Part shown: one piece after another, positions 40,098 through 45,411 of the stretch | Position numbering within the stretch: position 1 is the stretch's first letter | Layout: each line of letters starts with the position of its first letter | Origin: Candidatus Eiseniibacteriota bacterium | Lineage (GTDB): Bacteria > Orphanbacterota > Orphanbacteria > Orphanbacterales > Orphanbacteraceae | DNA: 64,000 nt | Reading direction: 5' to 3' | NCBI GenBank assembly: GCA_029262235.1 | Contig: JAJCZU010000003.1 | Coordinates: 248,001 to 312,000 of the forward strand | Notes under the pieces: model-generated | What the model was told of the DNA's origin: nothing | Databases searched by the model: none | The model's input: the letters and a program-made list of their open reading frames with translations, nothing else | Position numbers and translations under genes: made by a program

Positions 40098-40187
40098 GGC
40101 GAGTCGATGCGCCTGGGTGCGGATGGGGCAACGCTTCCTCGCCGGGCCTGGTTCAAGCTCAGCCCGTGACAACATCCTCGAAGACGT

Positions 40188-40212
40188 GGCCCTCCATCGG
40201 CCCGGACTGCGG
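40188..40212. repeat. 25-bp repeat, inverted copy at 45290-45314
   Basis: GGCCCTCCATCGGCCCGGAC plus TGCGG is identical to the reverse complement of 45290-45314. Matching continues imperfectly for ~30 bp more. A degenerate same-orientation copy (TGCGGAGCATCGCCGCATCC) lies near 42720. The copies bracket the two M4 peptidase genes. Confidence 0.85.
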
Positions 40213-40283
40213 AGCGTCGCCCCATCCACACCTGCGATCGGCTCGCCACTGTAGTGACGCGGCGTGAAAGAGGTCAGCTTCCG

Positions 40284-42647
40284 TCAGCGCACCAGCGTGA
40301 CTTTGCCAAGCTCGTTCCCGCGCATCGACTCGATCCGATAGAGGTAGATCCCCGAAGCGACGGGATTGCCGCTATTGTCCCGCCCATCCCACTCATAGCT
40401 ATAACTGCCAGGCGGCAGCGCGTTCTCTTCCACAAGTGTGCGCACCTGGCGACCGACCGAAGTGAATACGGTCAGGCGGAGCCGTGTGGTTTCTGCCAGT
40501 CGAAGCGAAAAGGTCGTTGTGGGATTGAATGGGTTGGGCCGTACCGATTGGAGAAGCCTGGCTGTCGGGACAGTGCCCGCTTCCACATCGGTAGCAACTC
40601 CCGAGACAACAATCGTGGCCGTCTCGTCTGCCCAGGGCTGGTAGTAGCCGTCCCGGTTGCCGTCCACGATCACATCGAAAGTGTCTTCGACGGAAGGCGT
40701 GAAGAAGTAGACGAACAGCGCTCCCGTTGAATCCAATGTACCGCTGGATTGCTCCAGCGCCTGTCCAGCCAGGTCGTCCCAGATCGGCCGGGCCGGATTG
40801 TGTGGCAGGAGCGCGAAGTCGACCGTGCGGCCGGGCGTGCCGTTTGCAAGAGAGGCCCAGACCGACTCACTCACCTGGAAAGTGGAATCCGGGCTGGTGT
40901 CGGACCGAACCGTTTCCAGGTCGCCTCCATGAGATTCCGCGCAGGGAGGGGCAGACTCACCGAGCGCGCCCAGCGGATCGTCGCAGATTCCAACCTGATC
41001 TGCCTCCACAGCCTGGAGTGCTTTGGCCAGTTCACCGCAGGCAGTGGGACTGTAAAGGTCATTGCATGCTTGCAGGATTCGGTCGTCCGCAGTGTTGAAG
41101 TTCTGTGAAGATGAGAAATAGGTTTTCCAGGCACGGTGGTACACTTGATGGGCGAATTCCATCCCCTGGCCCTGGATCTCGCAGCCGTTGAACTGATTGC
41201 CCTCAGCTGCAAGATAGAAGGCATGGGAGTAGACAGTCGAGTTTTGGTAGAATCCCGCAGTGTTGATCGACGTATCGCAGTTGAACCACTGATCATAGAA
41301 TCTGGCGGCATATCTCGCGCCCCAATCACCAATCAGATCATTCGGGTTTGCCAGGTTACGCCAGGGTGGATTATAGCCGATGAGACTCCCGCTCATCCAA
41401 TCAGTCATGCCGGTCTGGTCAAATTCGAATGCCTCTCCCAGGACATCCGAGTGCGATTCTTCTAATGCCCTGGTCTCCACATCATAAAAGTCCGGCCCAA
41501 AAGGAACGCCTCCGCTCGTGAATGCCCATTTGAGGATGGCATGGCCGTATTCATGGCCGATGATGTCCTCATGAGAAGCATCGCCCACACAGAGCGCGAT
41601 ACTGTTGGTGGGACCTATGAGCGCACTGTGAGGACAGACCTGAGGGTAGTAATCATAATGAACGTAGTACCGCGATTCGTTTGTTTCTGCGACTAAAGTA
41701 CGCGTCCCGCCTTGATTGTTCGCACCGTTCAGGTTGTACTTGGTCTGAACAAACGAGTGGATAGCACCGGCATGCACATACATCGAGTCCACATCCGTGC
41801 TTCCAAACTGCAGCATGCCGGGAATGTTGTGTGGACCCCGAGCCGGTTGCCCCTCGGACCTGCCGTGGATGTATCCGTTGATTCCCGGTAAGTCAAGACC
41901 GCAGCTCCCGTCATCTGGCTGCAAGGCACAGTCGTAAACTCTGCGGTCAAGTCCTTTAAAGTCATGAACAGCGAACAGGACCTCGGCGGTTCTTGCATCA
42001 ATGGAAACGTACGCGCCGAGCACCGGACATTCTCCGTGAGCGCACCTGGGGAACTGCACATGGAATTCCCATGCCAGTCTGGTGTCGTCCGCGATTCCGT
42101 TTTGACTCAGGCCGAGAGATCGAAGTACAAGCGCAGGGCTATCAATGCTTGCTTCTACTTCCGCGAAAGCGGGCAGCAATTCCCTCGCACTCTCTTCCGC
42201 GATCCGGCGAAGATCATCTCCCGAGAAAGATGGTGTGGTGCTGGCCGGAAGATCCACAACAACGGTAGGTGATGCAAAGTAGACCTCTCCCACCTGGTTG
42301 ATATGGACGCGCACTTCGGCCCCGAGTATCGGCAGGCCCTGGTGCTCCTGGTGGTAGATGACATGGGTGAGACCGAGATCGTCCTGCCGGGTCTCTATAT
42401 GCTTCAGTTGCGTGAACGGGGAGACAAGGCCTGCTTGAGCGCCATTTTCGGCCAGGAACGCATCCGCAATCAACAAGGCATCAGCCTCGCTGATCTGGCT
42501 ATGGGGGGCAGCCTTGGAGCTGATTCCCGCAGGCCGGAACTGGATGACTCGATCCCCGGCAGGGTTCAGGATCGTGTCCGCGAGAAGGCTTTCGGACGGC
42601 AGCAAGTGCAACAGAAGGGCGGCGCAAAGAGCGAGCTTGAAACGCAA
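40284..42647 (-). CDS. Secreted M4 (thermolysin-type) metallopeptidase, copy 1
   Basis: This 787-residue protein starts at TTG 42647, 7 nt after GGAGGT; ATG is not used. It has a signal peptide to ~22 and an FTP/PepSY-like propeptide (HVIYHQEHQGLPILGAEVRV). The catalytic domain has HEYGH at 365-369 and EESHSDVLGE supplying the third zinc ligand, followed by YSHAFYLAAEG. Residues ~560-700 form a beta-rich C-domain and the last ~90 a FlgD-type sorting module (SVRPNPFNPTTTFSLRL). A tandem paralogue lies just upstream. The C-terminal halves of the two genes are nearly identical in DNA. Confidence 0.9.
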   Translation of the reverse strand: MRFKLALCAALLLHLLPSESLLADTILNPAGDRVIQFRPAGISSKAAPHSQISEADALLIADAFLAENGAQAGLVSPFTQLKHIETRQDDLGLTHVIYHQEHQGLPILGAEVRVHINQVGEVYFASPTVVVDLPASTTPSFSGDDLRRIAEESARELLPAFAEVEASIDSPALVLRSLGLSQNGIADDTRLAWEFHVQFPRCAHGECPVLGAYVSIDARTAEVLFAVHDFKGLDRRVYDCALQPDDGSCGLDLPGINGYIHGRSEGQPARGPHNIPGMLQFGSTDVDSMYVHAGAIHSFVQTKYNLNGANNQGGTRTLVAETNESRYYVHYDYYPQVCPHSALIGPTNSIALCVGDASHEDIIGHEYGHAILKWAFTSGGVPFGPDFYDVETRALEESHSDVLGEAFEFDQTGMTDWMSGSLIGYNPPWRNLANPNDLIGDWGARYAARFYDQWFNCDTSINTAGFYQNSTVYSHAFYLAAEGNQFNGCEIQGQGMEFAHQVYHRAWKTYFSSSQNFNTADDRILQACNDLYSPTACGELAKALQAVEADQVGICDDPLGALGESAPPCAESHGGDLETVRSDTSPDSTFQVSESVWASLANGTPGRTVDFALLPHNPARPIWDDLAGQALEQSSGTLDSTGALFVYFFTPSVEDTFDVIVDGNRDGYYQPWADETATIVVSGVATDVEAGTVPTARLLQSVRPNPFNPTTTFSLRLAETTRLRLTVFTSVGRQVRTLVEENALPPGSYSYEWDGRDNSGNPVASGIYLYRIESMRGNELGKVTLVR

Positions 42648-42684
42648 GGGATGGACCTCCGGTGGCTGAATGGCGACCAGCTAC

Positions 42685-42690
42685 ATTATA
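42685..42690 (-). promoter_or_regulatory. -10 element of M4 peptidase copy 1
   Basis: TATAAT on the minus strand, about 38 nt before the TTG start. No good -35 hexamer lies 16-18 bp upstream. The paralogue has a TATAAT at the same relative distance (45207-45212). Confidence 0.5.
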
Positions 42691-42785
42691 CATGAGATAC
42701 ACGATACATGAGCGGGTTGCGGAGCATCGCCGCATCCGTTACTACGTGTCACGCCGCCGCGGGTAGAGCGGGGTGTCAGCTTCGG

Positions 42786-45167
42786 TTACCGAACCAGCGT
42801 GACTTTGCCAAGCTCGTTCCCGCGCGCCGACTCGATTCGATAGAGGTAGATCCCCGAAGCGACGGGCTTGCCGCTATTGTCCTGCCCATCCCAGTCATAG
42901 CTGTAACTGCCCGGCGGCAGCGCGTTCTCTTCAACAAGCGTGCGTACCTGGCGACCGACCGAAGTGAATACGGTGAGGCGGAGCCGTGTGGTTTCTGCGA
43001 GGCGCAGCGAGAAGGTCGTGGTCGGGTTGAACGGGTTGGGCCGGACCGACTGAAGCAGCCTGGCTGTCGGTACGGAACCGGCTTCTACGTCAGTAGCAAC
43101 TCCCGAGACAACAATCGTGGCCGTCTCGTCTGCCCAGGGCTGGTAGTAGCCGTCCTGGTTGCCGTCCACGATCACATCGAAAGTGTCTTCGACTGAAGGC
43201 GTGAAGAAGTAGACGAACAGCGCTCCCGTTGAATCCAATGTGCCGCTCGATTGCTCCAGCGCCTGTCCAGCCAGATCGTCCCAGATCGGGCGGGAAGGAT
43301 TGTGCGGCAGGAGCGCAAAGTCGACCGTGCGGCCGGCCGTGCCGTTGGCGAGAGAGATCCAGACCGACTCACTCACCTGGAAGGCGGAATCAGGGCTGGC
43401 GTCGGACTGTGTAGTCGCGAGGTCGCCTCCATGAGAGACCGCGCAGGGCGGGGCTTGCTCACCGAGCGCGCCCTGTGGATCGTCGCAGAGGCCGCCGCCG
43501 TACGGCGCCTCGGCCTGATTCGCTTCCACGGCCTGCAGTGCCTTGTCGAATTCCGCGCAGGCCGTCGAGTCGTAGAGGTCGTTGCAGGACTGCATGAACA
43601 TGGTGTACGCGCCGTCGAAGCTTTGACCGCGACTGAAGTAGGTGCGCCACGCACGATGGTAAATCTGAGTCACGAACTCCATTCCCTGCCCGACAATCTC
43701 ACAGCCGTTCATCTCGCCGCCCTCGGAAGCGAGGTACATGGCGTGAGAGTACACTGTAGACTGCGAGTAGTAGTCACCGCTTCCGACGCCGCCACATGTG
43801 AAATATTCATCATAAAGCCGCTGGGCGAAACGTTTGCCACCGTCGTTCACAAATTCATGCGGGTTCGTCAGGTCTCTCCAGGGCAGGCCGTTTGACCCTG
43901 TGCCGGCGATCCAGTCGGCTGAGCCTGTCTGGTCAAAGTCAAATGCTTCCCCCATGATGTCTGAGTGAGATTCACTCAGGGCGCGGGTACTGGGCTTTAA
44001 GTTGTCAATGCCATTTGCCTGATCACCAGCTGGAGTTGTGAAACTCCATTCAGCGAGTGCATGTCCATATTCGTGCCCGACCGCATCATTTATTATCTCA
44101 CCGTGACAAAAGCGCATGCTATATAGGGTCGTTAAATATGCTGACCCGGGACAATAGTTCGCTTGATTCCCATCCCAACCTTCGCCGTGCACAGTCAATA
44201 CTGTCAGGTGCTGGTTCCCTAACTCATTTCTGGTGCCGCCCAGATTATTCGCACCATTCAGTCCGAACTTCGTTTGGACGAAGTTGTGCATCTGGGCAGT
44301 GATATCGAAAGCGTAATCAACATCCGTGCTCCCGAACTGGGGCACGGCGGGGTTGTTGTGAGGCCCTCGGACAGGCTCGAGTTCGCTTCTTCCGTGCACG
44401 TAGCCGCTGATTCCGGGCGAGTCGATATAACAGGTCACGTCGTTCGGTTCCTTGGAGCAGTCGTATACTTTGCGGTCGAGGCCGTGGAAGTCGTGCACGG
44501 CGTATTGCACCTCACCACTGACTGCATCCACGCCCACCCAGGCTCCGAGTCGCGGGCAGTCGTCGCCGTTGCACTTCGTAAACGTGACATGCACTTCCCA
44601 GGAAAGGCGCGCCTCGGAATGACTCGGGCCGCCTTCCGGCAGAATCTCCAGCCGGGGTCGTGCGATCGAAGCGGAAACGTCCGCAAAGGCGGGCAGGATT
44701 TCGCGCGCCGCTTTCTCTGCGGTCTGCATGGCGGCGCGCTCGCTGATGACGGGAAAAACGGATGACGGCAGGTCTCGTACAATCTCTGCGGATGCGAAGT
44801 AGATCTCCCCGACTTGATTGATATGCACGCGGCAACCGGAGCTGCGGACAGAGACGCCGTGATGTTCCTGTTTGTAGATCACGTGTGAAAGGCCGAGGTC
44901 GTCCTGCCGTGTCTCCATGTGCGTGAGCTGAGTAGAGGGGGAGACGAGCCCGTCACGTGTCTCGTTCTCGGCCAGGAAAGCATCCGCGATCGATCGGGCT
45001 TCCAGTTTGCCGGTCATGCCCTGTGAGGCTGCTTGTGAGCTTACACCCGCGGGCTTGAACAGGATGACCCGATCTCCGGTCCTGCTCAGTTGATTCTCTG
45101 CGAAAGCGTTCTCGGTCAGCAGAAGTGACAGGAGCAGTGCCACGCAAAGCACGAGCTTTAAACGCAA
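42786..45167 (-). CDS. Secreted M4 metallopeptidase, copy 2 (paralogue)
   Basis: This 793-residue protein has the same layout as its neighbour. It has the TTG start with GGAGGT, a signal peptide, and a propeptide with HVIYKQEHHGVSV. VGHEYGHALAEW carries the zinc motif and SESHSDIMGE the third ligand. A beta-rich C-domain and FlgD-type module (PNPFNPTTTFSLRLAE, GIYLYRIESARGNELGKVT) follow. The catalytic half differs clearly from copy 1, but the last ~200 codons are almost the same in DNA. That points to recent partial gene conversion or duplication with diversifying catalytic domains. Each copy has its own promoter-like element. Confidence 0.9.
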   Translation of the reverse strand: MRLKLVLCVALLLSLLLTENAFAENQLSRTGDRVILFKPAGVSSQAASQGMTGKLEARSIADAFLAENETRDGLVSPSTQLTHMETRQDDLGLSHVIYKQEHHGVSVRSSGCRVHINQVGEIYFASAEIVRDLPSSVFPVISERAAMQTAEKAAREILPAFADVSASIARPRLEILPEGGPSHSEARLSWEVHVTFTKCNGDDCPRLGAWVGVDAVSGEVQYAVHDFHGLDRKVYDCSKEPNDVTCYIDSPGISGYVHGRSELEPVRGPHNNPAVPQFGSTDVDYAFDITAQMHNFVQTKFGLNGANNLGGTRNELGNQHLTVLTVHGEGWDGNQANYCPGSAYLTTLYSMRFCHGEIINDAVGHEYGHALAEWSFTTPAGDQANGIDNLKPSTRALSESHSDIMGEAFDFDQTGSADWIAGTGSNGLPWRDLTNPHEFVNDGGKRFAQRLYDEYFTCGGVGSGDYYSQSTVYSHAMYLASEGGEMNGCEIVGQGMEFVTQIYHRAWRTYFSRGQSFDGAYTMFMQSCNDLYDSTACAEFDKALQAVEANQAEAPYGGGLCDDPQGALGEQAPPCAVSHGGDLATTQSDASPDSAFQVSESVWISLANGTAGRTVDFALLPHNPSRPIWDDLAGQALEQSSGTLDSTGALFVYFFTPSVEDTFDVIVDGNQDGYYQPWADETATIVVSGVATDVEAGSVPTARLLQSVRPNPFNPTTTFSLRLAETTRLRLTVFTSVGRQVRTLVEENALPPGSYSYDWDGQDNSGKPVASGIYLYRIESARGNELGKVTLVR

Positions 45168-45206
45168 GGGATGGACCTCCGGGTTTGCTGGGAAGCGGCT
45201 CTATGC

Positions 45207-45212
45207 ATTATA
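45207..45212 (-). promoter_or_regulatory. Extended -10 element of M4 peptidase copy 2
   Basis: TGCTATAAT on the minus strand is an extended -10 (TGn-TATAAT), about 40 nt before the TTG start at 45167. The -35 region is poor, which an extended -10 can tolerate. Confidence 0.55.
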
Positions 45213-45289
45213 GCATGCCGGAATCGCCCTTGCCGCGCCCCTTCCCATCGCCCCACAGGGTGGCTTCTCGCGTGTGGTTGCGCGGCGCC

Positions 45290-45314
45290 CCGCAGTCCGG
45301 GCCGATGGAGGGCC
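45290..45314. repeat. 25-bp repeat, inverted copy of 40188-40212
   Basis: Perfect reverse complement of 40188-40212, with imperfect similarity extending to about 45250. It lies upstream of M4 copy 2, so the tandem pair sits between inverted copies. Confidence 0.85.
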
Positions 45315-45411
45315 CCGCTACCGCTGACTTTGTTGCTGGTCTCCCACGGATCAGCCCGACCGCAGGCCCGGCGAGGAGCGCTGCGCAATCACAACGCGGT
45401 GAGGTCACCAC

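Follow-up and report, generated by a model that had tools for sequence, protein, structure and literature searches.

How did two adjacent peptidase genes come to share a nearly identical C-terminal module while their catalytic halves differ, and what part does the inverted repeat around them play? The pair, here called A and B, lies in a window of 64,000 nucleotides (the whole stretch analysed) from contig JAJCZU010000003.1 of a Candidatus Eiseniibacteriota bacterium. The answer that we consider likely is that five close paralogs, A and B among them, recombine non-reciprocally, that their tail has been homogenised in two groups, and that the bracketing repeat belongs to a dispersed family of hairpins. 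Coordinates of all features are collected in Table 1.

Table 1. Features of the A/B locus, its paralogs and the related site in a same-genus genome. Plain coordinates refer to the window; L numbers denote fetched loci.
Feature	Position	Strand	Description
Left hairpin element	40115..40233	-	119 bp; 18 bp past the stop codon of a HerA-like ATPase gene; holds the left 25-bp arm (40188-40212)
Gene A	40284..42647	-	787 aa; signal peptide, FTP propeptide, M4-type catalytic domain, C-terminal module ending in a FlgD-like Ig domain
Gene A C-terminal module	40284..40988	-	Codons 554-787; DNA 90% identical to the gene B module
Gene A 5' part	42270..42647	-	Groups with B
A-B spacer	42648..42785	-	Upstream region of A and 3' flank of B
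Gene B	42786..45167	-	793 aa; domain architecture as gene A
Gene B C-terminal module	42786..43490	-	Codons 560-793
Gene B catalytic-domain end	43473..43760	-	Groups with paralog C6; window support 0.83-0.96; EAPYGG insertion common to both
Gene B catalytic part	44085..44336	-	Groups with paralog C2; support 0.98-0.99 in 60-codon windows; low GC3
Gene B 5' part	44790..45167	-	Signal peptide and front of propeptide; groups with A
Right hairpin element	45270..45397	+	128 bp; 74 bp past the stop codon of a DUF4332 gene; holds the right 25-bp arm (45290-45314)
Paralog C4	L027:671-3211		Other contig than A/B; close paralog
Paralog C2	L028:401-2803		Other contig than A/B; close paralog
Paralog C6	L029:1327-3750		Other contig than A/B; close paralog
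Paralog C4b	L030		Distant sixth M4_C gene
Probable M4 scar	L200 (G001:C528)		Intergenic region before tgt, between two hairpins

A and B are tandem open reading frames on the minus strand, and both are present where the first-pass annotation had placed them. It had also given them TTG starts and GGAGGT sites; the TTG starts are confirmed, and GGAGGTCCATCCC lies immediately 5' of each gene. The common -10 position that it described holds less exactly, as TATAAT precedes both genes at similar rather than identical distances from the start (37 nt in A, 39 nt in B). The spacer between the genes contains a 20-bp block that resembles the 3' flank of A at 18 of 20 positions. The codon usage of the pair stands apart from its surroundings: GC3 is 0.64 in A and 0.69 in B, all 39 other window genes tested are higher (mean 0.81, minimum 0.74), and values drop to 0.48-0.50 in portions of the centre of A and B. 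Elsewhere in the window, two short ORFs (1343-1729 and 2182-2448) read like what we take to be pieces of an IS3-type transposase.

Like members of thermolysin family M4, A and B possess an FTP propeptide, a Peptidase_M4_C domain above the Pfam gathering cut-off of 24.4 (61.8 and 50.9 bits) and the HEYGH zinc motif with its downstream glutamate ligand (the Glu of E-S). The genome, G000 (4.47 Mb in 11 contigs), holds six M4_C genes, namely A, B, C4, C2, C6 and C4b; the zinc motif and the glutamate are invariant in all six when aligned with thermolysin. Unlike that family, the five close paralogs A, B, C4, C2 and C6 have a tyrosine at the position equivalent to thermolysin His231, and they end in a C-terminal module with a FlgD-like Ig domain. 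C4b keeps the histidine, as do all 10 relatives in which the motif was found (13 examined, 39 fetched). The predicted active-site change from His231 to tyrosine is thus common to the whole mosaic family. The regions around this site span window positions 41001-41936 and 43521-44465.

The FlgD_ig domain scores above its Pfam cut-off in both A and B. G000 contains 149 FlgD_ig matches, so this type of tail is common in the genome; in a DNA search with gene A, strong matches to the C-module DNA are confined to the M4 family. The module, an Ig-like stretch followed by the FlgD-like Ig domain, probably serves as a sorting or anchoring tail. The type IX secretion sorting domain TIGR04183 (NCBIfam cut-off 23 bits) gives no listed match in A or B, 20.1-21.8 bits in C4, C2 and C6, which is under the cut-off, and 31.2 bits in C4b, which is over it. 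A different tail resembling TATEESSWGxVKxLFR occurs at the very end of 14 distinct proteins in the fetched loci, at L187:2364-2897, L120:137-751, L173:2599-3150, L180:1971-2705, L198:2478-2993 and L121:510-1031 among others. Scans of six of these proteins returned nothing from Pfam and no credible family from NCBIfam; the tail looks like an unlabelled short C-terminal sorting signal.

Relatives outside the genome are distant. A first scan for close named relatives returned none, and a second returned 39 distant loci, the best at 40% identity. The catalytic domain of B has no match at E 1e-15 in six other genomes of the phylum, and a viral origin was set aside after no relative was found among viral contigs.

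The 25-bp perfect inverted repeat reported around the pair is present. The similarity between the two flanks extends well past it and covers entire hairpins of about 120 nt, of which the 25-bp repeat forms the conserved core. Folding z-scores are -6.0 for the left hairpin and -4.4 for the right. In a common structure of 30 pairs, the right copy breaks four, one of them through a gap, and four differ on both sides between the copies. A further copy of a 22-base part of the repeat, allowing up to 3 mismatches, is found neither in the window (chance expectation 0.00) nor in the genome. A covariance model of the hairpins, searched at E values up to 1, recovers two further copies in G000 and two in G001, a second genome of the same genus, and these show the core AGCCCCATTGG. 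With one mismatch, this core pattern gives 54 matches in G000 compared with 5 in the control and 22 compared with 4 in G001; five other genomes of the phylum stay at control level. The hairpin family is therefore dispersed and restricted to the genus. The repeats flanking C4 and C6 carry the other subtype of the core. At nine sites orthologous between G000 and G001 the hairpin is preserved; in 393 pairs, 28 changes are two-sided and 39 are one-sided, a count in which 'broken' is zero by construction because the structures were chosen on the same alignments. No known RNA family was recognised, as nine hairpin loci gave no Rfam match at gathering score; three sub-threshold matches fall in the window part.

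Most of these elements lie near gene 3' ends. The position table starts from 66 elements, of which 8 are omitted (5 at the edges of contigs, 3 within called ORFs); 51 of the remaining 58, with elements at orthologous sites of the two species counted twice and genes called by a home-made codon model, adjoin at least one gene 3' end. Convergent genes flank 22 of them and divergent genes 7. The hairpins around A and B are best read as 3'-end repeats of the neighbouring genes, because each lies a short distance beyond the stop codon of an outer gene (Table 1), and we infer a 3'-end role for the family. The inverted repeat had been taken as a mark of duplication, with many copies elsewhere without M4 genes named as what would speak against this. 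Such copies are numerous for the hairpin family and absent for the exact 25-mer. A specific role of the repeat in duplicating A and B was set aside, since each arm belongs to a diverged hairpin of this dispersed family, close to the stop codon of an outer gene.

The C6 site of G001 adds a second species to the comparison. The flanking genes, whose proteins are 91% and 92% identical to their counterparts, are adjacent there; no M4 gene separates them, and hairpins lie to either side. A stretch of 34-37 bases matches C4 and C6 where their coding sequences end, and a CT-rich tract follows it. The scar score is reached in 0 of 2000 shuffles for C4 and for C6 and in 1 of 2000 for C2, and is no better than shuffles for A and B. 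An M4 gene was probably once present at this site and then deleted, so that the absence of M4 genes in relatives is not simply late gain. The sites of A/B, C4 and C2 were not found among the 79 loci retrieved from G001 (465,767 of about 3.9 million bases, fetched partly blindly by contig). At another locus, L173:2471-3870 and L191:1571-2079 are orthologous hairpin pairs in the two species with orthologous outer genes and unrelated DNA within; the interval is 1.4 kb in L173, with small genes bearing SW..FR tails, and 0.5 kb in L191.

Paired hairpins raise the question of whether A and B are the cargo of a composite transposon or cassette ended by inverted hairpins, with transposition having made the arrangement. 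C4 and C6 are also bracketed by hairpin pairs, and at one site orthologous hairpins enclose different content in the two species. The orientation of adjacent cores within 3 kb is likewise suggestive, with 13 of 17 pairs in the '-+' order seen in REPIN inverted doublets, 0 '+-' and 4 on the same strand (two orthologous pairs being counted twice). Genes between '-+' pairs have low GC3, in a set of eight that was picked after the pattern had been seen, that includes four M4 paralogs and in which the L179 ORF overlaps a hairpin. However, no transposase lies between the A/B hairpins, both of these lie behind the stop codon of an outer gene, like the majority of the family, and the G001 C6 site, with its hairpins on both sides and its M4 3'-end scar, looks like a gene deletion and not an empty target. 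Transposition is thus a very unlikely source of the arrangement. A looser reading, in which inverted hairpin pairs mark chromosomal slots where odd-codon genes for secreted proteins are gained, lost and copied, and in which the hairpins help exchange or bound conversion tracts, is unlikely too. If it were true, the mosaic M4 family would be residents of such slots, and the hairpins and outer genes would stay put.

The relationship between A and B themselves changes abruptly along the genes. The best change-point falls at codon 554 of A (window position ~40988) and codon 560 of B (~43490), with a log-likelihood gain of 134. DNA identity is 0.564 ahead of it and 0.902 beyond, so that differing catalytic halves and a near-identical C-domain and FlgD module (90% in DNA and 92% in protein) are found as first described, and the recombination breakpoint sought as the alternative to uniform divergence appears as a sharp step. 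It lies just past the catalytic domain. AlphaFold models were too poor for fold searches (mean pLDDT 47 for A and 58 for the C module); that of A places the end of the last catalytic helix near residue 551 with low confidence. A second more similar stretch, with an identity of 0.672, covers codons 18-126. In a column-permutation test, the A-B segment score was equalled in 0 of 1000 permutations.

One explanation without recombination would be a recent tandem duplication, after which diversifying selection drove the catalytic halves apart quickly and constraint held the tail. The same 5' leader, orientation, spacing and architecture in A and B would fit such a history. Four-fold synonymous sites, which lie beyond the reach of amino-acid selection, nevertheless step equally: A-B identity at these sites is 0.43 in the 5' part, falls to 0.34 centrally and rises to 0.74 over the C module, the last two values differing with a Fisher p of 6e-10. 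Protein constraint is therefore not the cause. The other paralogs step in the same way from centre to C module (C4-C6 from 0.35 to 0.74, C4-C2 from 0.40 to 0.67, C2-C6 from 0.32 to 0.65), and identity in the C module between {A,B} and {C4,C2,C6} is only 0.36-0.47. Judged from these alignments, protein constraint cannot account for a step in synonymous sites that depends on the group. Catalytic trees, moreover, place B with C2 and C6 and not with A, which leaves the duplication-only history highly improbable. That the similarity is an artefact of assembling or binning repeated modules in a draft genome of 11 contigs is scarcely credible, given copies that are 90% and not 100% alike, scattered differences, ORFs that are all open and flanks that differ.

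For each segment, the 15 possible trees of A, B, C4, C2 and C6 were compared. The 5' part prefers A+B, and trees without this grouping are 10.9 log units worse (best AU p 0.019). Across the catalytic region (columns 300-624), B+C2 is the favoured grouping, supported at 0.98-0.99 in windows at columns 348-433, and A+B costs 17.1 log units (best AU p 0.007). At the end of the catalytic domain (columns 540-639), B+C6 is preferred, the AU p of A+B is at most 0.027, and the EAPYGG insertion is found in B and C6 alone. In the C module, A+B is 149 log units ahead of any tree without it. FastTree groupings for the catalytic region and the C module agree with these segment tests.

Permutation results are given uncorrected for ten pairs. 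The observed score is reached in 0 of 1000 permutations for C4-C2, C4-C6 and C2-C6, as for A-B, and in 6 for B-C4, 12 for B-C2, 38 for B-C6, 57 for A-C6, 181 for A-C4 and 392 for A-C2. Homogenisation of the C module is accordingly strong and the central exchanges are moderate. Synonymous sites in the centre are nearly saturated. In the catalytic region A, which joins the outgroup C4b in FastTree, is possibly a long branch, and this could split A+B without exchange.

We read A, B and their three close paralogs as shaped by gene conversion that occurred repeatedly and is most sharply delimited at the edge of the C-terminal module. The earlier proposal of duplication with gene conversion confined to the anchor fares well in its first part, duplication followed by recombination that homogenised the C module. 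It fails in its restriction to the anchor, as B joins not A but C2 in its centre, and C6 where its catalytic domain ends. Nor is the process private to the tandem pair, since the dispersed C4, C2 and C6 form a second homogenised group with the same module.

In the proposed mechanism, secreted zinc peptidases would be kept as a set with one common tail and differing catalytic parts. Non-reciprocal recombination between homologous but separate loci, presumably gene conversion carried out by recombination proteins, would overwrite segments, the tail most recently and completely. The C module would be homogenised within {A,B} and within {C4,C2,C6}. Because the catalytic halves would have both diverged and traded segments, each gene may be regarded as a mosaic. 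C4 and C6 remain alike beyond the stop codon and through the 3' hairpin, and the hairpin at the G001 C6 site is of the other subtype, which suggests that the 3' end of C6, hairpin included, may have been overwritten by a C4-like copy. The case for conversion comes from the single genome that carries the mosaic family.

The process is of a known kind and the instance is new; literature searches gave no report of the A/B peptidase family or its hairpins, an absence that carries little weight. Paralogous secreted proteases that have downstream modules in common are known to recombine, as described in PMC5266723 for the gingipain and haemagglutinin genes rgpA, kgp and hagA of Porphyromonas gingivalis. 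Gingipains are cysteine proteases that share adhesin modules between the catalytic domain and the sorting tail and are compared among strains of one species. Unlike these, the genes described here encode M4-type metallopeptidases, and the shared part is the C-terminal module itself.

The hairpins recall REP and BIME/REPIN palindromes, which PMC3733652 and PMC3116915 describe as dispersed, extragenic, mostly 3' of genes and often next to oppositely oriented neighbours. A/B-type hairpins match them by place and pairing. Unlike these palindromes of 20-40 bp with an unpaired GTAG or CGTC tag, they are longer, at 65-130 bp, combine a conserved core with outer stems particular to each locus, and show no tag enrichment: GTAG occurs in 17 of the 66 elements and CGTC in 51, below shuffled means of 44 and 59. 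In a little-studied phylum represented by 7 genomes, a protease family would thus retain a common tail even as divergence and recombination reshape its catalytic parts, a pattern resembling that of gingipains. The locus adds a hairpin repeat family whose sites are conserved between two species of the genus and which does not fit the known REP tags.
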